Positions 138 through 51,561 of a stretch of 64,000 nt of DNA are shown one piece after another. Made by a program: the position numbers and the translations under genes. The first letter of the stretch is position 1, and each line of letters opens with the position of its first letter. The stretch is from a virus, in the IMG/VR virus record IMGVR_UViG_3300009514_000016, positions 16,186-80,185 of that record. The stretch is one strand, 5' to 3'. The notes under the pieces are model-generated. The model ran no database searches, was not told where the DNA came from, and saw nothing but the letters and a program-made list of their open reading frames with translations.

Positions 138-1286
138 TCATTTTTCTTTCTTTTGCAGCCCAGGGACCATAACAGGATTATTTAATCCTTCCACCTGAGA
201 AAAACAAGAATTTCCATCACTATTCTGTGACTTGAGAATCTCCTCCTGCAACCGCTTCTGCGTTCTTCTTAACAAATTAAGTGATCCCACATAATCTGCG
301 TCAGCTTTATGTCCGCATTGTTTGCAATGAAAACTCTCCTTACTCCTGTTCTTAATGGACTCCCAACCACAAAGCGGACATATCCTGGAAGTGTTTTTTG
401 GATCAACCTCTAAAAGATGAACACGGTTCTCTTCTGACTTGTTTCTGATCCTCATTACCACCTGAGAATATGCCCATGGGGCCATCTGTTTTCTTAACTT
501 CTTATAACTCTTCTTTGAAGTGTTCTTCTTCAAATTTGTCAAATCTTCAATTCCTAAAACCTGGATTTCATCCCAAGGGAGATTCTTAATAACCTTAGCA
601 ATATAGTCATCTCTCCTCTTAATGGCTCTCCTTTTAGCTATGGAACCTTGCTTCTTTCTAGCAACAGCTTGACATAGTTCCTTAATTTTTATTCCATATC
701 TCCTATTCTTATTGTCAACACAGAGTTTATTATAACCAAGGTCAATTGCTAAAGTGTCTCCCTTAGTCTTTAATGGAGTGTCAGGAACTTCAACAAATAA
801 ACTGATATATTTATTGGATAACTGACAACCTTGAAGCAGTTTAGCCCCTGGTTTCTTTAACCACCTGTTTAGTGCTCTATTTGATTTAATAGGAACTTCA
901 ATTGGAGAACCTTTTTTCATTCCAGAGATTCTAACACAATAATCAAAGTGTTCTTGTCTAAATTTTTCAACTTTGCAAGTGTTTATAGAAAGTCTGATTG
1001 CTCCTTCAACTTTTGGAACAGAAGCTTTAACTTTTAGTGCTTTTGCTGATTTCTTTGTGGAAATAACAGTTTCCAAAGAAAATTTTAATGCTTCAGTCTT
1101 TTGCCTATAACCAAGAGAGCCAGAATTTAATCTTTTCAATGTTTTAGCATCTAGCTTCCCTTTTTCTATCCAAAGAGAGGGAATATAAGAATTCACTGCA
1201 TGAAGAAGCTCTCTTCTATAAGCTTGAAGAGCTTTCTTTTTCTCTTGAGTTAGATGGGATATGGATATTTTAAAACTTCTTAACAT
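138..1286 (-). CDS. tnpB: TnpB-type RNA-guided nuclease (IS200/IS605 OrfB family)
   Basis: The 382-residue product has the complete TnpB layout: RuvC-I Asp in AIDLGYNK (about residue 182), RuvC-II Glu in GIEDLTNLKK (about 247), a CPLC...CKQC zinc ribbon (about 303-324) and RuvC-III Asp in ADADYVGSLNLL (about 331). Length and all catalytic residues are normal, so it should be active. TnpB proteins are RNA-guided DNA nucleases that help maintain IS605-type elements. No tnpA transposase lies beside it, so the element is TnpB-only or a domesticated copy. I chose the ATG at 1286 over an in-frame TTG at 1304, because that TTG lies within a TATAAT-like promoter region and the ATG begins the usual conserved N-terminus. 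The gene sits at the edge of phage accessory DNA, as is common for homing-like elements. Confidence 0.9.
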   Translation of the reverse strand: MLRSFKISISHLTQEKKKALQAYRRELLHAVNSYIPSLWIEKGKLDAKTLKRLNSGSLGYRQKTEALKFSLETVISTKKSAKALKVKASVPKVEGAIRLSINTCKVEKFRQEHFDYCVRISGMKKGSPIEVPIKSNRALNRWLKKPGAKLLQGCQLSNKYISLFVEVPDTPLKTKGDTLAIDLGYNKLCVDNKNRRYGIKIKELCQAVARKKQGSIAKRRAIKRRDDYIAKVIKNLPWDEIQVLGIEDLTNLKKNTSKKSYKKLRKQMAPWAYSQVVMRIRNKSEENRVHLLEVDPKNTSRICPLCGWESIKNRSKESFHCKQCGHKADADYVGSLNLLRRTQKRLQEEILKSQNSDGNSCFSQVEGLNNPVMVPGLQKKEK

Positions 1287-1295
1287 AGTGTGTTT

Positions 1296-1301
1296 ATTAT
1301 A
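1296..1301 (-). promoter_or_regulatory. Candidate -10 box of tnpB
   Basis: TATAAT on the minus strand with 9 nt to the ATG at 1286. It belongs to the GTATAAT class seen before many minus-strand genes here. The expected transcript would have only a few untranslated bases. No good -35 is visible. Confidence 0.45.
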
Positions 1302-1330
1302 CAATGGATTATTTTGCGGAAAGTGAAAAC

Positions 1331-7981: not shown

Positions 7982-9145
7982 TTACTGTGATTCAGAAGTT
8001 AATTGCAAAGAATCTCTAAATTGTTTTAGTGCATCTTCTGCTGAATAGTCTTTAATTGGCAGTCCTAAATCTGGAAATAATTCGCATATTTCTTCCAAAT
8101 AAAAATCATTTCTTATATCATGGCCCCAAAATTTTATAGCATTCCATTCATGTTGGGCAAATTTTTTAAATCTCTTTTTGTCTAAAACAAAATTGCGCGC
8201 AACCCACCCATCTAGTTCATCGAATTCTTTTTTCCCAGAGAGGTATTCCCATCCATGCCAATAATCCCCCATAATTTCTATTATAATTTTCCTTTCTGGG
8301 TCGGCAAAATCAGTTGTGGCAAAATCCATAAAATTATACTGCCATACAATTTTAGGCGATTTTTCAGCATTTATATCTCCAATTTGAATGTGATATCCAC
8401 GATTCAGCATCCAATTGGCAAATTTTCTTTCAATTCCAGAGACTTTTTCAAAACCGCCTTCTCTATTTTTTTTGATCATTCTGGCTCTTTGAGCTTCGCA
8501 CTGCTCAGGGGAATTGATATATCCCCTAGTTTCTTTGAGTAATATTCTTCCAGCAGAAGTGGCTTCGCTTCTATAATCAAGAATTTTTTGAGCCATCATG
8601 GGATAATTAGGAAATTCATCTTTATATTCAGATGTCTTTATATTATGAATTTTTAGGTGCCCATAATCAGCGAGCCACAAAAATGGTTCATGACATATTC
8701 GGCAAATAACATAATCTTCATTTTCTACACCATCTTCCATTATTTCTGCATTTTTAGCTCTAGTTTTTTCTTTGCCTCTCTCGTTTTCAATTTCATTTCT
8801 ATGATCTTTATAGCATATTTCACACATTCCTAAAGACTTATGCGCATATTCTGTGCTTTTACATTGCACGCATTTCTTATGTTTTTTAGACCATTTTCCG
8901 TTTAAAGAATTCATACTGGGTTTTCCTGTTGTGATTTTTCGTAGATTCTCAGCCCCTTTGGAATAGAATTTTTTCATTTCCTCAGGCTTGTCCTTCATCC
9001 ATGATTCTCTTGTCGGCGCATTATGTTTTGCTTTATACTCTTTGGCGCTCATTCCATGAACTTGTCTAACATGACTCAAAATCGTTTTCTCTTGTTCGAA
9101 TCCACATTCTTCACATTTTAACATCTCATTATTCCTTTGTTTCAA
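7982..9145 (-). CDS. Zinc-finger Vsr/DUF559-like nuclease, partner of the methyltransferase
   Basis: A 387-residue protein with three metal-binding units: CEEC...H....H (residues 11-30, Ros/MucR-like), CVQC...CEIC (92-111), and CRIC...GHLKIHNIKTSEY (148-174). The last two match the modules of the downstream methyltransferase in sequence and order. Residues 239-355 resemble the Vsr/DUF559 branch of PD-(D/E)XK nucleases: NFMDFA, then KIIIEIMGDYWHG (Glu290, Asp294), then a late FW..D strand. It is the first gene of a two-gene operon behind a GTATAAT box at 9198. Likely role: sequence-specific cleavage of DNA lacking the partner's methylation, aimed at competitor or host DNA. The pairing is inference; the domains are visible. 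Confidence 0.78.
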   Translation of the reverse strand: MKQRNNEMLKCEECGFEQEKTILSHVRQVHGMSAKEYKAKHNAPTRESWMKDKPEEMKKFYSKGAENLRKITTGKPSMNSLNGKWSKKHKKCVQCKSTEYAHKSLGMCEICYKDHRNEIENERGKEKTRAKNAEIMEDGVENEDYVICRICHEPFLWLADYGHLKIHNIKTSEYKDEFPNYPMMAQKILDYRSEATSAGRILLKETRGYINSPEQCEAQRARMIKKNREGGFEKVSGIERKFANWMLNRGYHIQIGDINAEKSPKIVWQYNFMDFATTDFADPERKIIIEIMGDYWHGWEYLSGKKEFDELDGWVARNFVLDKKRFKKFAQHEWNAIKFWGHDIRNDFYLEEICELFPDLGLPIKDYSAEDALKQFRDSLQLTSESQ

Positions 9146-9410: not shown

Positions 9411-10274
9411 TTAGGAACCAGATGTCACGCTGACTTTTGCCAGAGCATAGTCATTGATGATTACTATGCCCACTTCTTCATAAATTATCCAGCCAAGGCG
9501 AAGCTCTTTAGGGTTATCTGCTGGTAGAACGGTGATGTCCTGGCGAACCGGGAAGGCACCGACGTATTCGGCTGGAGCGAGCAGGAATACTTCGTCGGTT
9601 CTCATACGAGAAGAGACGTGAATATCTGCTGTCCAGAGGTGTCCGAATAAACCAGAGGTTAGAACCTCTCTCTGGGTTGCTTCATCGTAAACGGTTTTTC
9701 CGAAGTTACGAACGTCAGCATAGCGTGAAGCATGCATAACGATCTTAGCAACGGTTAGGTCGTGTTGCTCGATGAAAGCGAAAGCGCTGTTTAGGGCGGC
9801 TAGGGTTAGAGCGCCACCAGTTGTGGTGACAGTGTGATCAGCAAGAATGGAGCTTCTGATTGCGGCGAAGATGTTTGTATCTTCTTCCTTTTGAATAGCT
9901 TCTTTTGCTTTGATCTGAGCGCGGTCTACAATGTAGAATCTACGAGCTTTGATCTCGGAAATTCTGATTTGTGGGTTGACAGCGATCTCGAAAGTTGGGA
10001 CAAGGATTTCCTCGCCCTCGGTGATTTCGTCTGGCACAGCGCCTCTACGGGAGATGACGTGAGCGACTGAACGAACGTCTTTTTCGTAGCGAGCTAGGGC
10101 TCCTTGTGGTAGTTCGTCAACCATGAGAAGTTTACGACCTACAGCCTGATACTCAAGTGCTCTACGAATTGGTTCAACCATTGCCTGGGCAAGGGCTACA
10201 CGTCCTTCGTCTGTTTCAAGAGCTTGAGCGATAAGAGCTTCGCGTTCTGCTACTGCTGATTTATCTAAAGCCAT
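9411..10274 (-). CDS. Major capsid protein (HK97 fold)
   Basis: A 287-residue protein with HK97-type capsid character: a helical N-terminal arm, a long beta segment (VPTFEIAVNPQIRISEIKARRFYIVDRAQIKAKEAIQ), a spine-like helix and a C-terminal strand (IIYEEVGIVIINDYALAKVSV). It is the last gene of the structural block, followed at once by a strong terminator. Its codon choice is more GC-rich than that of neighbouring accessory genes, as expected for the most expressed gene. The ribosome binding site is AAAGGAATAAC. The 287-residue length suggests a compact HK97 core with little insertion. I see no cleavage site that clearly marks a removed delta domain. Confidence 0.82.
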   Translation of the reverse strand: MALDKSAVAEREALIAQALETDEGRVALAQAMVEPIRRALEYQAVGRKLLMVDELPQGALARYEKDVRSVAHVISRRGAVPDEITEGEEILVPTFEIAVNPQIRISEIKARRFYIVDRAQIKAKEAIQKEEDTNIFAAIRSSILADHTVTTTGGALTLAALNSAFAFIEQHDLTVAKIVMHASRYADVRNFGKTVYDEATQREVLTSGLFGHLWTADIHVSSRMRTDEVFLLAPAEYVGAFPVRQDITVLPADNPKELRLGWIIYEEVGIVIINDYALAKVSVTSGS

Positions 10275-10950: not shown

Positions 10951-13900
10951 CTACTTTTCGTCAGATTCAAACATTTTGTTCTTTTTGTTTAGGCTCATGA
11001 GATTCATGAGTTTCTGAGCTAGATCTTCTGTTTCAGACTCTTTCGAGGCTGTTCTAGTAATTAGAGGAATTTCTAGTCCAGGGTTTTCCTTGCTTGCTGT
11101 CTTGGTGAGTCTATTGGAAGCAGCTTTTCTAACGGTTGCCTCATATTTTTGAATTAGAGGAACGGCTTGCTCTGATAGATCTGCAACAAGTGTTTCGTAT
11201 TCGTCTGCTTCGACTAGTCCATCTCTTAGAAGTGAGGCTGCAGTTTTGCAGGCTTCTTTATATCTTGCTGTTGCAACCTTAGTCTCATTGACTTCTTTTT
11301 CGGCTTTAGCAGCTTTAGCAGAGAGTGATTTTACCTTGTCAGACTCTTTATTGTCTTTGCTGGAAGAAACCTTTACAACTGTACGTTTCTTGCAGGACTT
11401 GCAGGTAATAGCATTGTTTCCAGATGCTACTACTTTATCGTGTCCGCATTGCGGGCAGGATGCGAGAACGGTTCCTTTGATTCTGGTGTCTCCACCTTCA
11501 AGTTCTTCGTTCCCCAGGTTTCCGCTTCCAGCCGGAATATTCGGGCCGTCTTTCGGAACAGAAGTTTCGTTACCTATTCTTGCGCCATCCCCCTTAGAAG
11601 GAATTTCTGGGGCTTTCTTGGTAGCAGGCTCTTCTTTGCCTAAAGTTTTTCCAGTTGATGGAACATCAACTTCTGATTCGTTGATATGATCAACTTTATC
11701 GAGTTTCTTTTCTTTTGGAGTTGATTCCTTTATTTTTTCTGCTTTTGGCAGTTCTTGCTGAGCAAACTTTTCATTAATTGCTTTCTGAGTGCTATCAGCC
11801 AGGGTTGTTCCCTTGATGTCGTAATCTCCTCCGTCTAGTTCTTCGTTTCCTAGTTGTTGATTTTTGACAGGAACTTCTGGTTTTTCAACTCCGAAGTTTT
11901 CTTCTTTGCCCATGGTTGCTTTTCCGCCTTTGTCTGGAACATCTGGTCCCTTCTTATCGACGTGTTCTTCTTTGCCCATGGTTTTTCCGTCATGTGTTTT
12001 GCCTAGATCCTTGACTTCTTCAACAGCGATTGGCTCTTTGAGTTGTTTATTCTTTGGAGATTCGCTTTTGACTGGTTTTGGTTCTACGCTATCAACAACA
12101 TCTGCGTTTTTCTGCAGGTGTCCGCCTTTGAGTGCTAGAGTTTCCATGGCCTCATCTTCTTCGACCATGTCTTCATCAGCAAGTTCTTCTGTCATATCTT
12201 CAACAGCATCTTCTTCTTTCATATCCTCTAGTTCTTCCTCGGCATCTTCGTGGAATTCTTCGAGTGAGCTTTCTAGTTGGTCTTCGACTTCATCTAGAAC
12301 GTTCTTTAGGGCTTCGGCGTCTTCTTCATCAAGAGTGATTGTAACAGAGCCTTCGCCTTTATCTCCCTCTTCGAATTCATAGCCTTCGTTGGCGATGTCG
12401 AATTCAGATTCTGTTTCGGCTGGAACTTCTTTTTCTTCTGGTTCAGTGTTGAAATCATAGTCAAATGCTAGGACCATGTTTTCTGCTTCTAGTTCGTCTT
12501 GTTCTGCGTATTCAGCTTTGATTGCTTCGCATGTTGCGCAAGCAGCTTTTTTGCTTAGACCTTCGGCCATTCTTTCGGCAACGCATTGTTTCATTGGGTC
12601 GGCTTCAGCTAGTTTAGAAGCGACTTTCATGAATAGTCCAGCAGTTACTTGCTTGCTGGCTTTCTTTTCCCATTGTGAAAGCATTTTGCAAACTGATTCA
12701 GCGAGTGGCTTGCCTTCAAATGGACCTGATAGACATACGGCGTTTTCACCATATCTGCGGCTCATTTTTTCGAGGCAAGTTTCAACTGGGAATTTGCGAT
12801 CAGCCATGTATGAGGCAACTAGTTGTTTGTGTGATTTTTTTGTTGCGGCGGAAATTATTTTGCCTTTTGGACCTTTTGGATCTGTTTCATCTTTGAATAC
12901 AACTGGAACCCATGTTAGGTGGGCAATAAGTTTCTTAGAATCTTTTGGATGTGCAACAATGTCAACTTTGTAGTTTTGCGAGCATGCAGAGCATGATCCG
13001 ATGTTGTTATCCATTGCGACTTTAGATGAATTGCAGTTCGGGCAGAAAGATCCGAATGATGCTTTTCCAGCAGTTTTTGTTGCTTTATCTGGAGAAATAA
13101 CCATTGAAAGTCTGATTGGAAGAGCAATTTTCTTAGAAGCGGCTAGTCCAACTGGCTCTTCCAGTTTTAGTCCGCCTTCTTCTTCTTCGCCTTCGCCGCC
13201 TTTGCTATCCTCGATAGTTCCTGGCCATTTGTGGACATCAATATTGACAGAGATTTTGAATTCTGCTCCGCAGGAGTTACATTCTCCTTCTCCGTTCATG
13301 ATGTCAACGTCGTCAGAGGCGCATGCTGGGCATGTTGAGCCTGGTGGTTGAGCTTCGCCTTCAGATTCTGTTTCTGCGGCAAGATCTTCTTCCATTTTTG
13401 GCTCTGCTTCTGGTGGAGTGGCAAGTGTTTCAGCACCAAGTCCGCCCATATCGGTTGGACCAGCAGCCAGATCGCCTCCGGCTGGAGCGGCAGTCATCTG
13501 ATCTGGAGTTCCGCCTCCAATTTGAGCAATTAGCTTGCGTCTTTTTTCCGCTCTTGCTTTCAAGAAATCTTCTTTTGATTCAGCTTTCTCTTTTGCGGCA
13601 GTTTTCTTTGTGGCCTTAGAGAATGCGACATGAACTTCTTTTGCTTTTTTGTCGACTTCTACGCCGGTTGCCTCAACAACTTCGAATCCGTTCTCAGCAG
13701 CAATTTCAACTGCTCTTGCGATAACAGATTCTTTATCATCGATTTTGGCATCGCCTAGATCATCGAATTTAATGTGAACATTTGCTGTCTCGTCGCTTGC
13801 GACTTTTGTTTCTTCTTCAGCGGAAGCTTCGGTTGTTTCTTCTTCCTCGGTTGAGTCTTCAGTTTCTTCAACTTCTTCTTCTTTTTCGGCTTCTTTTGTT

Positions 13901-16236
13901 TCTTCTTTGGCATCCATAGCAAGCAGTGTTGCTTCAAGATCGCTGCCGATTGTTGGGATTGAATCCTCTTCTTCAGCTTGCTTGACAAATTCTTCTGCCA
14001 TAGTGGTGATTTTGCCAGTTGAAACATTTGGGTGTTTGGCTAGAACAGCAATTCCTTCCATGATTAGTTCAGAAGGAACATCTTCATCAGTGATGGATGC
14101 AGCAATGTTCTTGCCTAGTTCTTTTTCAGAAGACTTTGCACTAGCGACTTTAACTCTGGTTTCTCCAGACTGGATGCTCTTGACCAAATCTGCAGTTCCT
14201 GATTGCCAAGATGGAGACACGATCTTGCTTGCAATGCTTAGAACTCTCTCTGGTTGAGCGCCAGTGCGGGCGACGACTCTAGCTAGAGCGCTGATGGAGG
14301 CTTTGATAACTTCATCAGATTTCTTAGCGAATCGTTTGCCAAGTGGTTGATCTTGTGAGTAAAGTTGTTTCTCGGTAATATCGTCTGTTGGAGACCATCT
14401 GCTATCTTTGGATTTCCACTCGTCAAGCTGAGCTTCCATGGTCTTTTCTAGTTGATCTTTTTGATACCATGAACCATTAGACGGAGCAGAGTTGCCTTTC
14501 CATGACTCATCTCTTAGCTGTTCGTCAGTGATGTCGAGACGTGGTTCGTCCTGTCTTGTATGATTTGCGATGTATCCTTCAGCGACAGAGGCATTTTTTC
14601 CTGGCTTATCCTTGTCTAGCTGATCTTCTGTAATTGTTTCAATAGATTTATTCCAACGAGGATGAGAAGTTGTTCCAACTCCTTTGCCGTCCAGCTGAGC
14701 TTCTGTTGTCTCTTCTGGGTATCCTTTTCTGCTATGGATGGCATTACCGTTGTGCTCTTCAAGCTGCTTTTCGGTAATGTCTTGGCGAGGCTCTTTCTCA
14801 CCTTCCCATTTGGTTTTTGCTTCTTTTATATCTTTAGCCACTGTTTTGTCTCCTGTGCTAGATGTAAGGATTTCTTTAGAAATTTCCTCAGTATGGGATG
14901 CCATAAGATCTTTCAACAAACTCTTAAGGACTGCTTCCTTTTCATCTGTCATAGCTTTTCTGATATTATTATCTTCAAAGTCGTCTATATTCAGACTTTT
15001 TATAACAGAATCCTTGTAATATCCGAAATAACTATTTCCATCGGCTACTACTTTATAATCTCCAGAGCTAGCTTCCAATTTTGAGCCAGACTCTTTTTTA
15101 TTGCCTTTTCCGGCAAATTGGTTTTTTATTGTTTGCAGTTGTTCTACAACTTGCGATATTTTTTCCATTGCTTTTTCGCGCTCGGCAGCAACCGGCATTC
15201 CAGTTATTGATCCAACGCCTCCGGCTGGAGCGGCTTCTGGAGAAACTTCTGGTTCTGCTGAGGCTTCTGGGGCTTCTTCTGGAAGACCTGCTGGACCATC
15301 TGGCCCTTCTGCTCCTTCTGGACCTTCGCCGCCAACTTGAGAGTAACCCATTTCAACCAAAGTATCAGTTGTTTCCTGAAGATCACCAAGAACCTTGATA
15401 AGATCAGTTAGATAATCCATGTCAACGATATGGCGCTGATCCAGCATGGCGCGGCAAACATCTTCAATGTCTTTTAGAGCGGCTTGCAATTTGTCAACTT
15501 CAGCTTTTCCGCCAGTTTTGATAGATCCAGCTGATACTATTTTTTTGATTTTGCCAACAGCAGATGCGGCTTTGGTCATATACTCTTCATTATCAATAAT
15601 GTCTTGAATTGTGCAATCTTCGCAAGCGCCATCGGTTACGCAAGAAAGTTCAATGAATTTAATGCCATAGTTTTCTTCGTAAACTTTCTTGCCGTTTACG
15701 GTGCGTCCTTTATGATTTTGAACGCACTTGCAATAATCTTCAGCGGTAACAGCTTTATTGCGGCAAACTGAGCAAACGGAATGCTCAACTTGGCATCCCA
15801 TTGAAACGTCAGTAATATAACCTTGCTCGATTCCTCTGCAAAGCTGCGGATAAGCTTGACGATCAATGAACATGACAGTATAAACTGATTTATCATCTTC
15901 TGACCATTCAGCAGAAACGACCTTGCCTTTGGCGGTTTCAATCTTATCGTTTTCATGATTCGTAAAAACTGGAACACCAACAAATGAACGGTAAGACTTT
16001 TTCAATTCCTCAGTTGAGAAATAATCTCCGTTATCGTTTGGCTCATCGGCAACGATTGCCTTGACTTTGATAAACAAGGCGTCAGGGTGCTTTTCGATGG
16101 CTTCTCTAATATTCTTTTCATTTTCTGTTCTATCTTTTTCTGCGTCAATAAGGATAGAGGCAGTTTTCACTGTCTTATCTTTCTTTGCAGTATCTATAAT
16201 AGAAACAATTTTATGAGTTGCTGTTTTTATAAGCAT
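10951..16236 (-). CDS. Prohead protease fused to a very long acidic scaffold-like region
   Basis: A 1761-residue protein. Residues 1-220 form a capsid maturation serine protease: a VFTNHEND strand with His94, and VSMGCQV with Ser145, followed by the Cys-rich CSVCRN...YCKC insert seen in such proteases of large phages. The rest is mainly acidic helix with low-complexity Glu/Lys stretches. It includes six [IM]-T-E/D-x-QL-type repeats (about residues 480-635), and zinc ribbons CPACASD...CNSC, CPNCNSS...CSAC and, near the C-terminus, CPQCGHD...CKSC. Such a fusion of protease and internal scaffold would deliver the protease to the prohead interior and then be processed. Several KTAS/KTAx sites along the chain may be self-cleavage points (inference). 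Confidence 0.8.
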   Translation of the reverse strand: MLIKTATHKIVSIIDTAKKDKTVKTASILIDAEKDRTENEKNIREAIEKHPDALFIKVKAIVADEPNDNGDYFSTEELKKSYRSFVGVPVFTNHENDKIETAKGKVVSAEWSEDDKSVYTVMFIDRQAYPQLCRGIEQGYITDVSMGCQVEHSVCSVCRNKAVTAEDYCKCVQNHKGRTVNGKKVYEENYGIKFIELSCVTDGACEDCTIQDIIDNEEYMTKAASAVGKIKKIVSAGSIKTGGKAEVDKLQAALKDIEDVCRAMLDQRHIVDMDYLTDLIKVLGDLQETTDTLVEMGYSQVGGEGPEGAEGPDGPAGLPEEAPEASAEPEVSPEAAPAGGVGSITGMPVAAEREKAMEKISQVVEQLQTIKNQFAGKGNKKESGSKLEASSGDYKVVADGNSYFGYYKDSVIKSLNIDDFEDNNIRKAMTDEKEAVLKSLLKDLMASHTEEISKEILTSSTGDKTVAKDIKEAKTKWEGEKEPRQDITEKQLEEHNGNAIHSRKGYPEETTEAQLDGKGVGTTSHPRWNKSIETITEDQLDKDKPGKNASVAEGYIANHTRQDEPRLDITDEQLRDESWKGNSAPSNGSWYQKDQLEKTMEAQLDEWKSKDSRWSPTDDITEKQLYSQDQPLGKRFAKKSDEVIKASISALARVVARTGAQPERVLSIASKIVSPSWQSGTADLVKSIQSGETRVKVASAKSSEKELGKNIAASITDEDVPSELIMEGIAVLAKHPNVSTGKITTMAEEFVKQAEEEDSIPTIGSDLEATLLAMDAKEETKEAEKEEEVEETEDSTEEEETTEASAEEETKVASDETANVHIKFDDLGDAKIDDKESVIARAVEIAAENGFEVVEATGVEVDKKAKEVHVAFSKATKKTAAKEKAESKEDFLKARAEKRRKLIAQIGGGTPDQMTAAPAGGDLAAGPTDMGGLGAETLATPPEAEPKMEEDLAAETESEGEAQPPGSTCPACASDDVDIMNGEGECNSCGAEFKISVNIDVHKWPGTIEDSKGGEGEEEEGGLKLEEPVGLAASKKIALPIRLSMVISPDKATKTAGKASFGSFCPNCNSSKVAMDNNIGSCSACSQNYKVDIVAHPKDSKKLIAHLTWVPVVFKDETDPKGPKGKIISAATKKSHKQLVASYMADRKFPVETCLEKMSRRYGENAVCLSGPFEGKPLAESVCKMLSQWEKKASKQVTAGLFMKVASKLAEADPMKQCVAERMAEGLSKKAACATCEAIKAEYAEQDELEAENMVLAFDYDFNTEPEEKEVPAETESEFDIANEGYEFEEGDKGEGSVTITLDEEDAEALKNVLDEVEDQLESSLEEFHEDAEEELEDMKEEDAVEDMTEELADEDMVEEDEAMETLALKGGHLQKNADVVDSVEPKPVKSESPKNKQLKEPIAVEEVKDLGKTHDGKTMGKEEHVDKKGPDVPDKGGKATMGKEENFGVEKPEVPVKNQQLGNEELDGGDYDIKGTTLADSTQKAINEKFAQQELPKAEKIKESTPKEKKLDKVDHINESEVDVPSTGKTLGKEEPATKKAPEIPSKGDGARIGNETSVPKDGPNIPAGSGNLGNEELEGGDTRIKGTVLASCPQCGHDKVVASGNNAITCKSCKKRTVVKVSSSKDNKESDKVKSLSAKAAKAEKEVNETKVATARYKEACKTAASLLRDGLVEADEYETLVADLSEQAVPLIQKYEATVRKAASNRLTKTASKENPGLEIPLITRTASKESETEDLAQKLMNLMSLNKKNKMFESDEK

Positions 16237-19362: not shown

Positions 19363-21495
19363 CTAATCTTTTTGCTTCGCCTGCCTGATGGTTTCAGCTT
19401 TTTTCTGAACATTGGCGATAATAACTTTTGCGACTTCTGGCATTTTTTCTTCAATTTCGAAATCTTTAAATCTCAAAATAGTCCATCCCATTCCAGCCAG
19501 CAACCTGTCTCTTTCTTGATCAGAGGCAATCTGCTCTGGAAGCCCATGGAATAATCGACCGTCTGCCTCAATTCCAAACTTTATTTCTGGCATAGCGAAA
19601 TCAAGAGCAAAATCTTTTCCGCCTTTTGGGTTTTTCACTGGATACTGAGCATATTTGGCATACGGAATATTCATTCCCATTAATGCCTTATACATTTTGC
19701 GCTCAATGGAAGTAAACTGAATTTGTTGTCTTTGAACTTCTAAATAATCACCTTCTCCACCGCTGCTCTTTTTCTGCTTCTTAGCTTTTTCTGGAGTTAA
19801 TATCTTGCCGCCAGTTCCTGCCAATGCTGGACCCGGCATTCCGCCTCCTCCAGATTCTGCTGGAGGCGGCGCTCCTCCCGGTGCTCCTCCTGGTGCTCCA
19901 CCTAAGCCTCCTCCTGGTGGTGGTGGCATTGGAAGTCCGCCTCCCATTCCTCCTCCGAAACCGCCGCCCATGCCGCCCATGCCGCCTCCAATCGGAGCGC
20001 CCATGCTCGCCATTTGCTCTGCTTGCTCGAATCTTAGACGTTCAATTTCTTGATCAAAATCTATGCCGCCAAATAGTTCCCATAGAGTTTCTCTGGAAAT
20101 ATCTCCATTGCTTTTCATTTGCAATAGCATTTGCAATTTGGCTGAATTATCTCTGATCTTGAGATCATTCCATTTGATTTCTGGGACGACGTACACAGTC
20201 TCGCCCATCTTCTTGGATTTTTCTTCATCAATAAATCCGCGCATCTTGGCCAATGGCAAGAATATCTTCTCTTCAATCCACTCAGCAAGCTCTGTTCGCC
20301 AAGATTCCAATTTCTGAATCATAGCTTCAACACCAACCGCCGCAGATTGATAAGCAGCGGCCTCTCCGTTGAGCAGGGCTTGGTTAATCATCATTCCATC
20401 AAGAATTTCTTGAGAGATTAACTCAAATTCATTGCTCAGAGATAGGACGCGACCTGATGTTCCATACCATTCATAATCAAAAGCATGGTGAGTTACCAAA
20501 GTCAGGTTTGGATCGTTTGCCGTCAAAGCCAATTGAGCCTGAACATTCGCCAAGTCTTCTGGACCCGCTGGACGATCATCATTTCCAACCTTGACGACTC
20601 TAACTGGGAGAATTAATCTTTCCGCGACAATCCATTGAGCGACCATGAGCTTGTCTTTGTATGACAAAATCTTGAATAGTCGGCGGATAAAAGAAGATCC
20701 ATAAGTTGTATAAGAATTTCCCTTATGTTTTAGATGGGAAACAACTCTATTACTTAATTTTATTGGCTGACCAGCAGCAACTTTTTTTCTAACTTCAAGA
20801 GGAAGTCTCTCATAAATCTCTCTAGGAGATCTGGTCATCACCACTGATTTCAAAGTTTCATCTGGCAACATCTTGATCTGTGGGTCGTCAACAAAAGGAG
20901 AGTCTTCAACCTCTACATTGTCTGGGTTGAGAATAATAATTGCTGAGAATTCTCCGCCTTCATGATTGCATACCCCACCAGTTTCTGGATCAACAGAGCT
21001 TCCAGCACATTTGTCGCATTTGACTTGGAGCATTGGGAACACATCGCCAATGACAAGTCTATCATGAGAAATTTCTTTGAGGATTCTATTGAGTTTTATT
21101 TTCTTGCAGAAACTTTCGTAATATTGTTTGATATTTCTGTCTTGGCACTGCAGAGTAAATCCATTCATAGGAAATTCAGAATACCAGTCAATCGCAGCGG
21201 CAACTTTAGGCTCATTCTCATAAAAATATCTAGCCCATTGCATAACCTCTCTGCGCTTTGACGGAATCTGCCAGTTGATAGGCGTGTGAAGCGGAGAGTA
21301 ATATTGCGGTTGAGTTGTTATAACATTGCCGCCGATTCCGCCTGTCAACCCTGAGACACTGCCCAATCCAGCAATTCTAGTAAATTTCTTATCGTTGGCC
21401 GCTTGAATAGTCAATCCCTGTTTAGACATATGGTATGCCTCTTCAGTTCTACTAGTGATTATTTTGTTGGTAACTATTCTAGGAATCTTGTTCAT
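19363..21495 (-). CDS. Portal protein fused to a C-terminal DUF559/Vsr-like nuclease domain
   Basis: A 710-residue protein. Residues 1-500 have the portal pattern: tail-side wing (MQWARYFYENEPKVAAAIDWYSEFPMNGF), clip/stem region (NRVVSHLKHKGNSYTTYGSSFIRRLFKILSYKDKLMVAQWIVAERL) and late crown helices. A small CDKC...C.H insertion near 175 may bind zinc. A Gly/Pro-rich linker (about 505-575) leads to residues 595-690. This last part reads as a DUF559/Vsr-type PD-(D/E)XK fold: DFAMPEIKFGIEADG (Asp632, Glu643, Asp645), HGLPEQ..SDQERDR, GWTILRFKDFEI. A nuclease tethered to the DNA channel is unusual. It could act on packaged or ejected DNA, or help packaging termination. One 12-fold portal would carry twelve such domains. 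Confidence 0.82.
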   Translation of the reverse strand: MNKIPRIVTNKIITSRTEEAYHMSKQGLTIQAANDKKFTRIAGLGSVSGLTGGIGGNVITTQPQYYSPLHTPINWQIPSKRREVMQWARYFYENEPKVAAAIDWYSEFPMNGFTLQCQDRNIKQYYESFCKKIKLNRILKEISHDRLVIGDVFPMLQVKCDKCAGSSVDPETGGVCNHEGGEFSAIIILNPDNVEVEDSPFVDDPQIKMLPDETLKSVVMTRSPREIYERLPLEVRKKVAAGQPIKLSNRVVSHLKHKGNSYTTYGSSFIRRLFKILSYKDKLMVAQWIVAERLILPVRVVKVGNDDRPAGPEDLANVQAQLALTANDPNLTLVTHHAFDYEWYGTSGRVLSLSNEFELISQEILDGMMINQALLNGEAAAYQSAAVGVEAMIQKLESWRTELAEWIEEKIFLPLAKMRGFIDEEKSKKMGETVYVVPEIKWNDLKIRDNSAKLQMLLQMKSNGDISRETLWELFGGIDFDQEIERLRFEQAEQMASMGAPIGGGMGGMGGGFGGGMGGGLPMPPPPGGGLGGAPGGAPGGAPPPAESGGGGMPGPALAGTGGKILTPEKAKKQKKSSGGEGDYLEVQRQQIQFTSIERKMYKALMGMNIPYAKYAQYPVKNPKGGKDFALDFAMPEIKFGIEADGRLFHGLPEQIASDQERDRLLAGMGWTILRFKDFEIEEKMPEVAKVIIANVQKKAETIRQAKQKD

Positions 21496-38717: not shown

Positions 38718-40445
38718 TTACCTAAACCCTGTATAAGCAACAATCGCTCTCGGAAGCCTCTTGTCGTTCCTCTGATTAAAGTTCATTCCGACGTAAAGAG
38801 CGCCTGCCAAGCAGTCAGCTAAGTCGTCTGTTCCGACTTCGCCGTCTTGATCGGGATAAAGAGTATATCCCTTATGAGTGTACTTCATCTTCAACTCTTT
38901 CAATTCATTTATCAAATAGTAATTATCTGGAATGCTAACGTTTTCCATTCTGACCGCTTCTCGCAAAGCTCCATAAATTAGAGATTTATAGCTCTGACCA
39001 AACCTTGTCTCTACGGCATTTAGACCATATTTAACAAATCTCTGCCTGCTGTGAACAGATTGAAAGTTGTCAAAAGTCAAAGTTGCAAGCTGAAATCTGC
39101 GCGAAAGATCAATAATTTCATTGTCAATGGATTCCAAGTCTAATTCTTTTCCGCCTTCTGGTTCCCACCTTCTGATGAGATCGACAACAAATTTCTTTCT
39201 CTCTTCACCGCCTGTGTGAGTATAGTGCTCAACATGTCCAATAATGCATCCGTAAATGTGGCTTGAAATAGCCGGGTCGATGTGCATGTGGTATATTTTC
39301 CCTTTGACGCCCACATGCTGCTCTGAAAGAGTCAAATCGACAATATTTTCTACCTGCTCTCCAGTTAGGAAATTTGAAGCAGCGCTTCCGCTGAATTGCG
39401 CTCCATATTCCATCTCTGCAGAAACCGGATCTCTTTTGAAATCGTTTTTAAAGTCTTCCCTAGTAAGTGTTTCATTCGCAACCCATGTTGGAAGCTGGAA
39501 ACAAATTGTGTCCTGGGCTGACAAATCATTCCCCTGCTTGTAGAGTTTGTAGAATATCCCCTCTTTTCCAGCCGGGTTCGATAGACTCATGATCCTTCCA
39601 TGCTCTTTGAAAGTTTTAGTTGACGGAATCATGGACTCATAAACTTGAGAGCCACTGCTTTTTCCAGTTGAGGTGACAAAGTGGGCTAACTCATCAAAAA
39701 TAACGGCGATTGCCAGTTTTCCACGAAGCGAGGCGCTGTTGGAGTGCCCGCATCTTAGGACAATAGAGCCCTTGATGTCAATTGGATTGCCATCATCTTG
39801 CAGTTCTTTTTGTCTTTCTCTGTCTTTTCTGGTGTAGACGTGGATTGTGTCTTCAGTGCTTGCGCCGATTCTTCCAAAGAAATATGGAGAGTTTCTTAGT
39901 CTCGCTTTAATTTCTTCAAAAAGCGGAGATTTAGCCTGCTCTTTAGAAACAGCGCAGTTGATGATGGATATTTCCTTATCCTTTGGCAGTCCGTAAAACT
40001 CATGGGGATCGCCATTGTTTATTTCTAGCAGTTTATAGATTTCATAAGCACTAATAACTGAAATGATGAACGTTTTGCTGGAACGACGACCAAGGACTAA
40101 CACTAGTTCTTTAACATGTGCAGGAAGTCCGGCCTCATTTTTCATGCCGTACTTTTTAAGAGCGGCAGTCTGACCGTTCTCTTCCATGAGCCTGATCTCT
40201 TCTTCTGTCAATTCGAGATCTTCGTTCCCGATGCTTCCTCGATAGAAACATTTGAGAATAATTCGCTGCCAAGGCCACAAAGCGAATCCCTGAGCCTTAA
40301 CGTTTAGTAGATCTGATCTTTCGCAGAATTCGATAACGTTAGCAATGTCTTTGCCGGAAGTTAGGTCTGTAGATATTCGACTTGTTAAGTCATCAACAAT
40401 ATTGTTGAAACTTATCACTTGTTTTTTGTTTTGTTTTTTTGCCAT
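38718..40445 (-). CDS. terL: Terminase large subunit (packaging ATPase-nuclease)
   Basis: A 575-residue DNA-packaging motor. Walker A is the arginine-type GRRSSKT (119-125), and Walker B is AIAVIFDELAHF with Asp251-Glu252. The RNase-H-like nuclease shows HIDPA (Asp390), TFDNFQS (Asp459) and TDDLADCLAGAL (Asp540-541, 544). All key residues are present, so the ATPase and headful or site cleavage activities should be intact. It heads the structural genes on the minus strand and lies directly after a short degenerate paralogue (40517-41059). No small terminase is recognised in the window. Confidence 0.95.
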   Translation of the reverse strand: MAKKQNKKQVISFNNIVDDLTSRISTDLTSGKDIANVIEFCERSDLLNVKAQGFALWPWQRIILKCFYRGSIGNEDLELTEEEIRLMEENGQTAALKKYGMKNEAGLPAHVKELVLVLGRRSSKTFIISVISAYEIYKLLEINNGDPHEFYGLPKDKEISIINCAVSKEQAKSPLFEEIKARLRNSPYFFGRIGASTEDTIHVYTRKDRERQKELQDDGNPIDIKGSIVLRCGHSNSASLRGKLAIAVIFDELAHFVTSTGKSSGSQVYESMIPSTKTFKEHGRIMSLSNPAGKEGIFYKLYKQGNDLSAQDTICFQLPTWVANETLTREDFKNDFKRDPVSAEMEYGAQFSGSAASNFLTGEQVENIVDLTLSEQHVGVKGKIYHMHIDPAISSHIYGCIIGHVEHYTHTGGEERKKFVVDLIRRWEPEGGKELDLESIDNEIIDLSRRFQLATLTFDNFQSVHSRQRFVKYGLNAVETRFGQSYKSLIYGALREAVRMENVSIPDNYYLINELKELKMKYTHKGYTLYPDQDGEVGTDDLADCLAGALYVGMNFNQRNDKRLPRAIVAYTGFR

Positions 40446-40516: not shown

Positions 40517-41059
40517 TTAGGACATAACTGAAAATACCTTTTGATTAAGTTTTTCTTCAATCATATTAACCAACTCGAAATGTTTGTTGCTATAAGAATT
40601 TAGGCTATCTGCGTATATGGCATCACATTTCGTTCCGCGGTATATTTCAATTTCATGAATATTCCCAAAATGGACAGAATATAAATAGTCCCCCAAAGGA
40701 AACGATATTTCATGATTAAATCCACAAGTAAGAAAAACATCATCCATATTTACAACTTCACCAATTTGCAAATTAAAAAACAAATTATTGAGCATAAGCT
40801 TGCAATTAAATTTAGCTCGACTTATGATCAGAATGTTTCTATCTCCGCAGCATTCTGTTTCTTGCATAAATTCTTCCGAATCAAATGCTGGAGCTATCTT
40901 TGTTGTCTCGTAATATTGGACATAATCTTTCATCGCGCAAAATAAAAGAGCCCATGAATTTCCTGCGCGCCTTGGAGCAACAATATGTCGATGAGCACCT
41001 TCTTCAAAAGTGCTCATGACATATTGCTGATATCTAGTCGGAGTAAAATGAAGAATCAT
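40517..41059 (-). CDS. Degenerate, truncated terminase-like ATPase domain
   Basis: A 180-residue protein that looks like only the ATPase half of a large terminase. The N-terminal TPTRYQQYVMSTFEEG is followed by APRRAGNSW, a terminase-type Walker A in which the essential Lys is Asn (RRAGNS instead of RRxGKS). A strand ILIISRAK then resembles the region after it. A Walker-B-like strand reads CDAIYADSLN, with Ser where the catalytic Glu should be. It is probably ATPase-dead and lacks the nuclease domain. It sits between groEL and terL, a place where a small terminase could be expected. It may be a regulator of the motor or a decaying duplicate. Confidence 0.62.
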   Translation of the reverse strand: MILHFTPTRYQQYVMSTFEEGAHRHIVAPRRAGNSWALLFCAMKDYVQYYETTKIAPAFDSEEFMQETECCGDRNILIISRAKFNCKLMLNNLFFNLQIGEVVNMDDVFLTCGFNHEISFPLGDYLYSVHFGNIHEIEIYRGTKCDAIYADSLNSYSNKHFELVNMIEEKLNQKVFSVMS

Positions 41060-41062
41060 TTT

Positions 41063-42688
41063 TTAGAATGGAATTCCTGGAATGCCGCTCAACATTTCCC
41101 CGCCTGCTTTTGGATTTTCCTCAACCAACATGACTTGGCTTGTTAGAAGCAATCCGGCAATGCTCGCAGCAGTTTCTAAAGCAGTTGTTGTAACTTTAGC
41201 TGGGTCAATGATTCCGCTCTCAACAACGTCTCCATACTCTCCACTCGCAGCATCATAGCCATATTCATACTTGTTTTCTCTGAGAACATTTTGGACAACA
41301 ACCTCCCCATTTGCTCCAGCATTCTCAGCAATTTTCATAATAGGAGCAGCAAGAGCTTCATAGACTATCTGAATTCCTCTTGCGAAATCTCCCTTATGTT
41401 CTTTGGCAAAGTCTGTTAGAACTTCTCTTGATCTTAGCAAAGCGATCCCACCTCCAGGGAGAACTCCAGTTTCAATTGCAGCTCTGGTTGCGTGTAGAGC
41501 ATCCTCGATTCTGGCTTTCTTTTCTTTCATCTCTACTTCAGTGGCAGCGCCAACATTAATCTGAGCAATTCCGCCAGCAAGTCTAGCTAGACGCTCTTGC
41601 AATTTCTCAGTTTCATATTCACTCTTTGAAGCAGCGATATGTGATTTGATTTGCTCAATTGCCTCGTCAATCTTTTCATCCTCGCCATAGCCATTGGTAA
41701 TAGTTGTTGAATGTTTGGTTATGACGATTTTCCCGCAACGTCCCATATCTTCAATTTTGAAGTCTCTAGCTTTCTTGCCTGAGTCTTTTAGGAGTGCTTT
41801 TCCGCCAGTGGCAACAGCAATATCTTCAATAAGGTTTCTCTGGGTGTCACCAACACCGGGGACTTTGACGCAGCAAGCACTCATTCTGCCTTGCAGCTTA
41901 TTGGTCAAAATGGTTGTCAAGAATATTTCAGAGAAATCTGGAGCAATGAGAACAACTGATTCGCCTTCATTGGCGCATGCTTGAAGCACTCCAGTTAAAT
42001 CTCTGATGTTCACATTTTTGTCATCTGTCAAAAACAGGCGAGCATTGTGGAAAACACATGTCTGCTTATCTTTTTCTGTTGCGAATGCCTGACTGACCCA
42101 TCCTTTATCAAATTGCATACCAGCAATTAGGTCGATATAAGTTTCATTGGTTTTGCCCTCTTCAACTGTGACAACGCCATCTGTCCCAACCTTCTCCATT
42201 GCATCAGCGATAATTTCGCCGATATAGGTATCGTTGTTGGATGCGATTGAGGCAACTTGAGTTACTTCATTTTTGCTGTCAATTTGCTTAACTTTGGCCT
42301 TCAAGTCTGCCATAACTTTATCGACCGCAGCGTGAATCCCGTTCTTTAGAGTGACTGGGTTAGCGCCAGCAGAAACTGCTTTTCTTCCGCTTTGATAAAT
42401 TGCTCTTCCAAGAACAGTAGAAGTTGTGGTTCCATCTCCAGCGACTTCAGCAGCTTTGACAGCAACTTCTTTTAGCATTCTTGCGCCAAGATTCACAAAT
42501 TCATCTGATACTTCAAATTCTTTTGCTACAGTAACGCCGTCTTTGGTGACTATTGGAGAACCGCCTAGTTTTCCAATGATAACATGTCTTCCTTTTGGCC
42601 CAAGAGTAGATCCAACTGCATCGGCAATTTGATTTACGCCTTGCTCAATAGCATCCTGAGCATACTCAAAGTATATGACTTTTTTCAT
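41063..42688 (-). CDS. groEL: GroEL chaperonin
   Basis: A full-length 541-residue GroEL with the ATP-binding motifs in place (GDGTTTSTVL near 86 and LPGGGIALL near 412). The apical domain is intact. The C-terminus ends GEMLSGIPGIPF without the Gly-Gly-Met tail of E. coli GroEL. Phage-encoded chaperonins fold capsid or other virion proteins. The location next to terminase and a GroES gene fits a dedicated head-assembly chaperone. It has its own GTATAAT box at 42719 and a GGAGAA ribosome binding site. Confidence 0.95.
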   Translation of the reverse strand: MKKVIYFEYAQDAIEQGVNQIADAVGSTLGPKGRHVIIGKLGGSPIVTKDGVTVAKEFEVSDEFVNLGARMLKEVAVKAAEVAGDGTTTSTVLGRAIYQSGRKAVSAGANPVTLKNGIHAAVDKVMADLKAKVKQIDSKNEVTQVASIASNNDTYIGEIIADAMEKVGTDGVVTVEEGKTNETYIDLIAGMQFDKGWVSQAFATEKDKQTCVFHNARLFLTDDKNVNIRDLTGVLQACANEGESVVLIAPDFSEIFLTTILTNKLQGRMSACCVKVPGVGDTQRNLIEDIAVATGGKALLKDSGKKARDFKIEDMGRCGKIVITKHSTTITNGYGEDEKIDEAIEQIKSHIAASKSEYETEKLQERLARLAGGIAQINVGAATEVEMKEKKARIEDALHATRAAIETGVLPGGGIALLRSREVLTDFAKEHKGDFARGIQIVYEALAAPIMKIAENAGANGEVVVQNVLRENKYEYGYDAASGEYGDVVESGIIDPAKVTTTALETAASIAGLLLTSQVMLVEENPKAGGEMLSGIPGIPF

Positions 42689-42742: not shown

Positions 42743-43069
42743 CTAAGCTGTTTCTACTAGTTCGTCTTCTGTTTCTTCAACTAGAGAGATAACAGCCAGT
42801 ACATTTTCATCTTTGACGACGGTGTACTTTTGTCCGCCGATTTCAATAATAGTTCCTTGAGAGAAAACAATCTGGTCTCCAAGCTGAACATCAAGATTTT
42901 CAAATTCTTTGACTTGAACACCGATTCTAACGACAGTTCCTTTAATGCTGTTACTATTCATTTCTTCTTCTGATTCAGGAATGAATAGAGCATCAGGGTC
43001 TTGTTCCACTTTTTTAACTGGAGTGACCAAGAAGTGTCTAGGGGCTGGACGAATCTCTACTTTGCTCAT
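42743..43069 (-). CDS. groES: GroES-like co-chaperonin
   Basis: A 108-residue Cpn10 with the RPAPRHFLVTPVKK start, a mobile-loop region (EQDPDALFIPESEEEMNSNSIKGTVVRIG), the LGDQIVFSQGTIIEIGGQKYTVVKDENVLAVI core, and an acidic tail beyond the usual end. It caps the GroEL encoded just downstream. Its start lies inside the last codons of the McsA-like gene (32-bp overlap), so the two are co-translated. The loop is longer than in typical GroES, as in several phage co-chaperonins that accommodate capsid proteins. Confidence 0.88.
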   Translation of the reverse strand: MSKVEIRPAPRHFLVTPVKKVEQDPDALFIPESEEEMNSNSIKGTVVRIGVQVKEFENLDVQLGDQIVFSQGTIIEIGGQKYTVVKDENVLAVISLVEETEDELVETA

Positions 43070-49286: not shown

Positions 49287-49859
49287 ATGTTGAATCCATT
49301 TTTACTATCTGTTGGGTCTATATTCATAGACAAATACAGTAGATATCAAAAAGTTTTAAGCATCGATAGCCATAATGGTTTTATAGAATTTCAACTCATA
49401 AACGGCACTGGTCCAAAACATAATCATCTGAATTCTGATAAGGGATGGTGGAACTCATGCACTCTAGTGGATGACACTAGCTCTTTAGGAGTAGACCCTT
49501 GGCTATTGAGCCAGGGCGATTTAGTCCACAATGTTCTAACCGGAAAAAAACAAACAGTTCAGACCACTAGTTCAAGTGGCATCATTTTTAAAGAAGACAT
49601 GCACACTCTGGTTGATTTAAATGATCCAGTTTGGCATTACTGCAAACTCGATCTTGACCTAGATTACATGGATTGGGATGATATCATTATTGATCTTAGT
49701 GATATCACAACTATAGAAGAAGAATTAGAAGAATCTCTAAAAACTCCTGAACAAAAGAGCAAAGAGGCTGAAATAGACTTTTTCTTTTTCCCTGAAAAAT
49801 GGGCCGAAAGAGTTAAGAGAAACCAAGAAAAGTACGGCAAGAATAACGATACTTTTTAA
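49287..49859 (+). CDS. Hypothetical protein (190 aa)
   Basis: Unrecognised. The N-terminal 110 residues are strand-rich (SIFIDKYSRYQKVLSIDSHNGFIEFQLINGTG; GDLVHNVLTGKKQTVQTTSSSGIIF) and may form two SH3-like barrels. The rest is acidic. It is the last gene of the 46.4-49.9-kb plus-strand run, and its end overlaps the convergent CCA-enzyme gene by 4 nt. Confidence 0.65.
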   Translation: MLNPFLLSVGSIFIDKYSRYQKVLSIDSHNGFIEFQLINGTGPKHNHLNSDKGWWNSCTLVDDTSSLGVDPWLLSQGDLVHNVLTGKKQTVQTTSSSGIIFKEDMHTLVDLNDPVWHYCKLDLDLDYMDWDDIIIDLSDITTIEEELEESLKTPEQKSKEAEIDFFFFPEKWAERVKRNQEKYGKNNDTF

Positions 49860-51094
49860 AGAGCTGTTTTCAAATAGCCTCGCGCGAAATCCATAATTGC
49901 AAATTCATCATCTGCAATAGATGGGTTATCTAAAATGTGATCTTTAACCAATTGATTCACAGTTCCCAGTATTCTAGGATCTTCCGAAATCGCGGGGAAT
50001 TCATCCATTAGCTGTTTATTGTTTATCTTCGGCTTTTGCAATAAAGAGATAAATTCTTCTGGACTATGAGGCAAATACTCATTGCGATCTAAAATATCTC
50101 TGAATTTAGTTCTCTGATCTGGCCGCAAGAATCCTAGGGCACTAACATTCATTATCGATGATTCAAATAGCTCATAAAGCAAGTCTATGTTTTTATTGTT
50201 TTGCATTTGTCTTTTCAGATAAGTTGCAAATGGTTGATTCTGCGCAATCATTTCTTCAATAACGGAAACTAACCCCAGTCTCTTCATGTCTTGGAACATA
50301 ATATGAGCATTTGGTTCATCCAAAATATTTTCAACCAGTATCGTTCCAATGGCTTCCCATGGAGCATTCTTCATTTTATCAGCATTTCTCATTATAGATT
50401 GTTCAACTTCTGGAGACAGAGTAAATCCATATTTGCCCATGAATTTTATTGCTCTTAAAATTCTTGTTGGGTCGTCTGAAAATGTCACATCTGGATCAGA
50501 CGGAGTTCTCATATTCTTATTATAAAGATCTTTAAGTCCAGTTCCAAGGATATCAATTGTATCGGAAGCATCTGGACCATCATCTAGGTCAGCCATTCTC
50601 CATAACAGAGTGTTGAAAGTGAATTCTCTTCTCAACAAGTCTTCTTGAATTGTTGCTGGTTGAACATCTGTCGGCTTGTATCCCTTGCCTTCGTCATCTT
50701 TTGTTTTGCCATATGACTCTTTGCGGGCGTTGGCTATTTCAATTATTTCTCCATTGAAGTTTTGTCCATCAATAATCCAATCATCTTTGATTGTTACGAT
50801 TGCGACTCCATACTGATTAGTTGCCAAATTGGTTTCAACTGGAATTTCGCTCATAATATTGTGAGCAAGCCAAGCAGAATCTTTCCCTTCTCCCATGGCG
50901 ACGCTGTCAATGACAATATCAATATCTTTTATGGGCTTTCCCAATAGGAAGTTTCGAACTGCCCCTCCAACAACATAAGTATCATTCCCAGCGCCTAATT
51001 TTTTAGTAACTTCTGAAATGAATTTCATCAGAATAATAGATTTCTTGTGTTCATCGACTATGTTTTGCGCGAATTTATGATACCAATTATTCAT
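49856..51094 (-). CDS. cca: CCA-adding enzyme / poly(A) polymerase head-domain protein with N-terminal tag
   Basis: A 412-residue class II nucleotidyltransferase: YVVGGAVRNFLLGKPIKDIDIVI (GG at 43-44, DxD 57-59), the RREFTFNTLLW motif, and DDPTRILRAIKFMGKYGF as in bacterial CCA-adding enzymes. It repairs tRNA 3' ends (CCA), or less likely adds poly(A). I start it at 51094, which gives MNNWYHKFAQNIVDEH: the enzyme carries the same leader as the hypothetical tagged proteins. If that leader targets capsids, the enzyme would travel in the virion and restore tRNAs early in infection (inference). TAATG overlap with the upstream gene. Confidence 0.85.
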   Translation of the reverse strand: MNNWYHKFAQNIVDEHKKSIILMKFISEVTKKLGAGNDTYVVGGAVRNFLLGKPIKDIDIVIDSVAMGEGKDSAWLAHNIMSEIPVETNLATNQYGVAIVTIKDDWIIDGQNFNGEIIEIANARKESYGKTKDDEGKGYKPTDVQPATIQEDLLRREFTFNTLLWRMADLDDGPDASDTIDILGTGLKDLYNKNMRTPSDPDVTFSDDPTRILRAIKFMGKYGFTLSPEVEQSIMRNADKMKNAPWEAIGTILVENILDEPNAHIMFQDMKRLGLVSVIEEMIAQNQPFATYLKRQMQNNKNIDLLYELFESSIMNVSALGFLRPDQRTKFRDILDRNEYLPHSPEEFISLLQKPKINNKQLMDEFPAISEDPRILGTVNQLVKDHILDNPSIADDEFAIMDFARGYLKTAL

Positions 51095-51561
51095 TATCTC
51101 TTTCTCTGATCCCTCATAAAATCTTCTATAAGTTGTTTGACTTGTTTCCTCCACTCATCATAACTTGTTTTTGAGGCGACTAAAGATTCTTCATAAGTTG
51201 TTTGATCTAGAACCTCAGAAAATTTCATTTCCCCATTATTGCCGCATGCGATATCAAATTTATTAAGCAATCTTTTTCTGGAATTATAAGACAGCAAGTC
51301 AGACAGAGATGTAATTATGGCAATAAATGCATCTGGTTTTTCACAAATATTTATTTGCTCAATGTCGGTTTGAGATTCAATGAACTTTTTATTCCAGTTA
51401 TAGGCGATATAATCCATGTTCTCTGACAATCCTTGTGGTGGACCAATGGGCGCTTTAGGCTCTTTTATAAAACCCACATCGCGTCTAGGTTGAATGGTTC
51501 CCAAATCCGGCTCTGGGGATTCAATGCGTTTTTTCTTTTTGATCTTTTTCTTTTTGGCCAT
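51094..51561 (-). CDS. Basic-N-terminus hypothetical protein (155 aa)
   Basis: Unrecognised. It starts MAKKKKIKKKKRIES, a strongly basic tail. The rest is helical (LSDLLSYNSRKRLLNKFDIAC). Its TAA stop overlaps the ATG of the CCA enzyme (TAATG), so the two are co-translated. No catalytic motif. Confidence 0.65.
   Translation of the reverse strand: MAKKKKIKKKKRIESPEPDLGTIQPRRDVGFIKEPKAPIGPPQGLSENMDYIAYNWNKKFIESQTDIEQINICEKPDAFIAIITSLSDLLSYNSRKRLLNKFDIACGNNGEMKFSEVLDQTTYEESLVASKTSYDEWRKQVKQLIEDFMRDQRKR

Follow-up and report, generated by a model that had tools for sequence, protein, structure and literature searches.

In the 64,000-base window of virus DNA analysed here (bases 16186-80185 of the 80,185-base IMG/VR record IMGVR_UViG_3300009514_000016), the gene P0001 encodes a phage portal protein that carries a predicted nuclease domain at its C-terminus. 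The gene lies on the minus strand at 19363..21495, where a single open reading frame (ORF) of 710 amino acids (aa) runs from an ATG at 21495 to a stop at 19363. That its product is built of a portal core, a flexible linker and a C-terminal DUF559 domain is, as a matter of anatomy alone, close to certain. A first-pass annotation had given the same coordinates and had called the product a portal with a tethered DUF559/Vsr-like domain, and profile searches bear it out on both position and architecture. Sequence comparisons further indicate that the fusion was a single gain in an ancestral phage and has been kept since by all its descendants, a large clade of big, so far uncultured and apparently virulent phages. 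The reading we prefer, at a probability of roughly 45%, is that the domain has a core role in the virion, in which the predicted nuclease would process phage DNA at the portal during packaging.

The portal core spans approximately residues 53-497 (20005..21339, minus strand). Residues 55-482 match the portal family phrog_16240 with an E-value of 2.8e-55, further portal families also match in the profile search, and the Pfam family SPP1_portal matches at E 4.9e-5. A model of the full-length protein was used only as a guide because its confidence was poor (predicted local distance difference test, pLDDT, 46); its core aligns with the portals of 80alpha/SaPI1 and SPP1, and with others, at Z-scores of 8-10. 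The core is followed by a low-complexity linker of about 95 residues (approximately 498-593; 19717..20004, minus), of which Gly, Pro, Met and Ala make up 68% and which has a lysine-rich end. Among 62 relatives this linker varies from 88 to 202 aa, and 77 of 87 short linkers are closed by a basic [KR][KR]G motif just ahead of the nuclease domain. Chance or artefact as the source of the fusion was considered and rejected, as the same fusion occurs in dozens of independent contigs.

The C-terminal domain occupies approximately residues 594-701 (19393..19716, minus). When the whole protein was searched, residues 627-696 matched DUF559 (PF04480) with an E-value of 7.6e-8 and 32.6 bits against a curated cut-off of 20.6, and the isolated domain reached 2.8e-9 and 37.2 bits. 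Each of the 65 distinct relatives has a PF04480 match at E <= 0.001, and the portal copy is the single DUF559 match in the whole record. An AlphaFold prediction from an alignment of 65 domain sequences (pLDDT 86.4; predicted template modelling score 0.79) gave the order helix, three strands, helix, strand, helix. This is the alpha-beta-beta-beta-alpha-beta core of PD-(D/E)XK nucleases, the fold that the first-pass annotation had expected. In structure comparisons (Foldseek, VIA-align) the best match of this model was the DUF559 protein 3hrl (Z 14.1; root-mean-square deviation 1.6 A over 93 residues), followed by the homing endonuclease I-Bth0305I (3r3p; Z 13.4) and Vsr (Z 10.9). A sequence-profile search of the PDB was again led by 3hrl and 3r3p (E 1.2e-7 and 2.6e-7). 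The DF and E-x-DG of the domain align with 3hrl, and an E-x-DG/NG motif is aligned for both structures. Kinship with Vsr seems, on the model, to be one of fold similarity only: at E <= 0.1 the vsr family model TIGR00632 had no hit in P0001, and only a DUF559 model did, falling far below its cut-off. Similarly, no TnsA model matched P0001 in the family scan, DUF559 and MTES_1575 being matched instead. Pfam and PHROG scans of P0001 returned portal and nuclease domains only and no added DNA-recognition module, although weak modules could escape such scans; PADLOC matched no defence model. By profile match and predicted fold the domain belongs to the PD-(D/E)XK superfamily, and nuclease activity is predicted for it.

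The predicted active site is concentrated in a block at 19507..19602 (minus) that contains D632, E643-x-D645-G646, H650, D659, R662 and D663 and is invariant in 65 aligned relatives. Across 62 distinct portals, the same residues are invariant together with G670, W671 and R675. The D...E-x-D motif and the GW.ILRF strand noted in the first-pass annotation are both present, and the acidic residues are conserved throughout. Neither of the two outcomes which that annotation had named as refuting its reading, a different predicted fold and unconserved acidic residues, came about. Position 649 is F in the window portal and W in the 62 distinct portals. This degree of conservation bears on one alternative, that the domain is a catalytically silent DNA clamp whose fold is kept only for binding DNA at the portal, much as nuclease folds have been retained in parts of the mitoribosome. 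Mitoribosomal proteins and FASTKD4, which are non-catalytic Vsr-like folds, do appear in the lists of structure matches. However, none of the residues expected in the active site varies among the 62-65 distinct sequences, and mere binding would not need such conservation, so we regard a silent clamp as highly improbable.

How far the fusion is fixed was judged on scans that started from the portal, because a scan with the nuclease-motif pattern could return only carriers of the motif; the latter was excluded from the estimate. Ranking by full-length match may, even so, slightly favour fused relatives. With the portal as query, 23 viral loci were recovered, and the domain was present in all 21 in which the contig extends past the end of the gene; in the other two, L018 and L021, the gene is truncated. 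With patterns from the portal core alone there were 80 loci, of which 73 are fused and six leave the contig before the domain would begin. In the remaining one (L183) the portal gene is disrupted by frame changes, and the next ORF encodes the domain. The first-pass annotation had recommended looking for the same fusion in related phages, and it is found across them. In the record of L183 (G012, 187 kb), the portal and terminase genes are both split over several frames with internal stops. A third scan, anchored on phage G, yielded 57 fused portals. Fusion-bearing records reach 548 kb, and in the eight large ones (296-548 kb) the portal copy of DUF559 is always present and is the sole copy in six.

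The nearest portal in the annotated phage collection is gp14 of phage G (33.6% identity over residues 63-491). No portal in that collection carries this domain, and the domain alone matches mostly helicases and homing enzymes there. The portals of phage G, of its close relatives and of a second group (L226-L230) finish with a low-complexity tail and have no nuclease domain. In one phage G-like portal, the 1016-aa ORF of L216, the short tail seen in the others is replaced by a long C-terminal extension of another kind. Since these nearest outgroups have the tail but lack the nuclease, the fusion arose once and then became fixed. Among 84,980 bacterial and archaeal species genomes there were 24 pattern hits, none of which encodes a relative, whether as a prophage or as a host copy.

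The domain has also evolved in step with the core. Pairwise distances for the two are strongly correlated (Mantel r 0.93, p < 0.0005 on 2000 permutations), and in 60 close, mutually non-independent pairs the median ratio of nonsynonymous to synonymous substitution rates of the domain (0.028) equals that of the core (0.025). Taken with the invariant residues, this means that the domain was fused once and then passed down vertically, strong selection keeping its active site intact. The window portal is the first branch inside one of two subclades.

These portal genes are frequently invaded. Across the family and its outgroups, 54 of 126 distinct portal ORFs contain large, in-frame, intein-like insertions, one to four per ORF and at several sites, whose ends look like those of inteins (C...HN/C or GN/S junctions, for example). 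The loci include L006, L010, L012, L014, L017, L019, L020, L074, L146, L163, L177, L179 and L180. In four of them (L019, L146, L163 and L180) it is the nuclease domain that is interrupted, precisely between the E and the D of E-x-D-G. Inteins prefer sites that are nearly invariant. The window portal has no such insertion. Insertions of this kind could suggest that the domain is a captured homing endonuclease of EDxHD/Vsr-like origin, which still acts, or once acted, to spread the portal gene. I-Bth0305I is indeed the second-best match among solved structures, and a free-standing Vsr-like gene lies near the capsid gene of the window. Fixation of the domain, its co-inheritance with the core and the lack of presence/absence variation within the clade speak against a captured homing enzyme, as does the failure to detect an extra DNA-recognition module, and we consider this origin very unlikely to explain the present fusion.

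In portals generally, the stem, wing and crown are inside the capsid and the crown touches the DNA (PMC9958956). As the C-terminus leaves the crown, the nuclease domain should lie inside the head, and by analogy with known portal structure about 12 tethered domains would ring the inner mouth of the DNA channel. In T4, endonuclease VII (gp49) binds the portal gp20 and releases branched DNA that stalls packaging (PMC9958956), and the DNase activity of gp4 is required for packaging (PMC7824862). These precedents are the reason for proposing DNA processing on the portal side. The tethered domains would nick or trim aberrant or portal-reached phage DNA (branches, nicks, flaps and loose ends), in a manner timed to the filling and finishing of the head. 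One portal protein would in this way perform the work of T4's separate nucleases, gp4 at head completion and the portal-bound endonuclease VII. Cleavage must then be structure-selective or gated, because the packaged genome would otherwise be destroyed. The first-pass annotation had offered destruction of host DNA near the injection site and processing of DNA on entry among the possible roles; either may hold, but the fixation and slow evolution of the domain favour processing of phage DNA. A stronger version, that it is an essential ring-mounted DNase at the inner channel mouth that replaces a separate portal-bound resolvase or head-completion nuclease, we advance more tentatively.

The complement of other resolvases is suggestive only in this respect. 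Neither RuvC nor RecU was found in any of the eight large records (0/8 each); endonuclease VII was found in one, and RusA and T7 endonuclease I only under the cut-off. Phage G, which is without the portal nuclease, has a clear RuvC, and the record Rctr197k has a clear endonuclease VII. The RuvC protein of phage G had no match in 16 records in a search run without a positive control. The comparison is one of eight records with five, most of them perhaps fragments, and the portal domain as a resolvase substitute should be read in that light.

The surrounding genes form one head module, all on the minus strand, in which the portal gene is accompanied by those for the large terminase (38718..40445; phrog_2, E 6.5e-23), the major capsid protein (9411..10274; phrog_2522, E 8e-71) and a 1761-aa head protein (10951..16236). 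The N-terminal part of the last (approximately residues 50-210) resembles a head-maturation protease (phrog_18299, E 6e-16, residues 52-204), which makes it, on its sequence, a candidate processing enzyme. The terminase has intact ATPase residues and nuclease residues (D390, D459 and D540/D541/D544), and neither the RNase H-type aspartates nor the residues of the ATPase vary in any of the 16 records compared. The terminase thus retains its own nuclease residues, and the portal nuclease would be an additional one; replacement of the terminase nuclease by the portal domain was rejected. The same observation disfavours cutting at packaging termination, a role suggested in the first-pass annotation, and with it the idea that the headful or terminal cut has passed from the terminase to the portal nuclease. 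The presumed position of the domain at the packaging pore would suit that role, and headful-phage portals do participate in sensing a full head. However, the terminal cut occurs outside the capsid and the portal domain should be inside it, so that this role, too, is scarcely credible.

The main rival to processing of phage DNA at the portal is that the domain is an injected effector: the maturation protease would cut the linker, and the freed domains would remain in the head until they exit together with the DNA, to act in the new host against its DNA or that of competitors. Two reports describe enzymes that are fused to portal or MuF proteins and are believed to be injected (PMC5512222; PMC9503650), a protease-like protein is encoded in the same head module, and the basic motif at the linker end could be a cut site. 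However, effector domains as a rule differ between relatives and get exchanged or lost, whereas this one is present in all complete members of the clade and changes no faster than the core, and the sequences gave no evidence of linker cleavage. We therefore judge an injected effector unlikely, while ranking it ahead of the other alternatives.

Several points weigh against DNA processing at the portal. The catalysis of the domain rests on prediction, and the resolvase pattern is statistically not strong at the size of the comparison. Branches that stall outside the channel entrance would be hard to reach for a domain within the head, so that debranching would need the tether to be threaded out, or a portal that is oriented or processed differently. 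If the maturation protease did cut the linker, as it could, the effector explanation would be favoured. Finally, an active DNase at this place would have to spare the packaged genome.

The window holds other features of interest. Two lie beside the large terminase gene: a 180-aa ORF (40517-41059, minus) that by eye resembles an N-terminal fragment of a terminase ATPase (PRRAGNSW) and has no family match, and apparent GroEL and GroES genes, also recognized by eye (41063-42688 and 42743-43069, minus). Adjoining the capsid gene is an ORF of 387 aa (7982-9145, minus) whose product is probably a free-standing homing endonuclease: it contains a zinc-finger region resembling that of MucR (PF05443), and the Vsr model TIGR00632 matches it weakly, below the cut-off (E 2.5e-4). 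A TnpB/Cas12f-like transposon-associated nuclease is encoded at 138-1304 (minus; PF07282, E 1.7e-16). A C-terminal peptide, [YFW]xx[LI]E[IL]-stop, is shared by 14 of the 103 window ORFs of at least 100 aa, against an expectation of 0.008 based on its internal frequency, and a fifteenth ends in the similar MLLEI (stops at 4354-, 4899-, 5781-, 35592-, 43913-, 44588-, 47729+, 52155-, 52957-, 54531-, 56015-, 57712-, 58991-, 59683- and 60147-, the sign giving the strand). Its codons vary, and the likeness is therefore at the protein level; the peptide may serve as a tag for sorting, packaging or processing, and none was seen in those loci that were compared. Several unrelated proteins on the plus strand (1710, 2647, 3380, 58387, 62567 and 63412) start with another peptide, M-N-N-W-Y-x-K-F followed by A-Q or similar, which also occurs in similar form at an internal start of the ORF at 49856-51154 (minus) and is perhaps a capsid-targeting or propeptide signal.

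Portals are usually regarded as passive rings and pressure sensors. A fixed and selected portal DNase would, if real, add an enzymatic step to packaging or ejection, and would prompt one to ask how packaged DNA withstands about 12 tethered nucleases next to it. The fusion suggests a DNA-processing step within the virus particle that has gone unrecognized, and the clade would offer a ready test system for what portal-associated nucleases do. A function would also be assigned to one phage member of DUF559, a family with many members in phages, and a clade whose portals score weakly in Pfam would become easier to recognize.

As for novelty, the first-pass annotation had called the arrangement a new design, which stands in part. 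Portals fused to other enzymes have been described by Iyer, Aravind and colleagues, namely PBECR (a predicted RNase), 2H, Nudix and inorganic pyrophosphatase, as have fusions of MuF to effectors; the available parts of these reports name no DUF559 or PD-(D/E)XK portal fusion (PMC5512222; PMC9503650). A portal-DNase fusion was not found described in the searched literature, from which most subscription journals fall outside. The fusion of portals to enzymes is thus a known theme, of which a clade-wide PD-(D/E)XK domain of DNase type appears, from its sequence, to be a new variant within that literature. The fusions of these reports likewise place an enzymatic domain, presumed to be virion-borne, on a portal or head protein, but the domains have other folds and occur sporadically, whereas the PD-(D/E)XK domain is in every complete member of a deep clade.

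Among enzymes of the same fold, NGO0050 (3hrl), I-Bth0305I (3r3p) and Vsr (1vsr, 1cw0) are stand-alone, homing or mismatch-repair enzymes, none of them part of a virion, and homing endonucleases of the EDxHD (I-Bth0305I) type are mobile and patchy, unlike the fixed and co-inherited portal domain. Bacillus phage G gp14, the closest annotated portal, has the same kind of Gly/Pro-rich C-terminal tail but no nuclease domain, in a phage that has a RuvC homologue. T4 gp4, for which a PD-(D/E)XK fold is predicted (PMC1189080), resembles the portal domain in that fold and acts in head maturation, where a similar role for the portal domain is only proposed; it is, however, a separate small protein of the TnsA/T7 endonuclease I branch, neither DUF559 nor fused to a portal. 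T4 endonuclease VII is, like the portal domain, a portal-associated nuclease, but its fold is different, it is held non-covalently and it works on DNA stalled outside the channel, whereas the domain of P0001 is joined to the portal chain itself.
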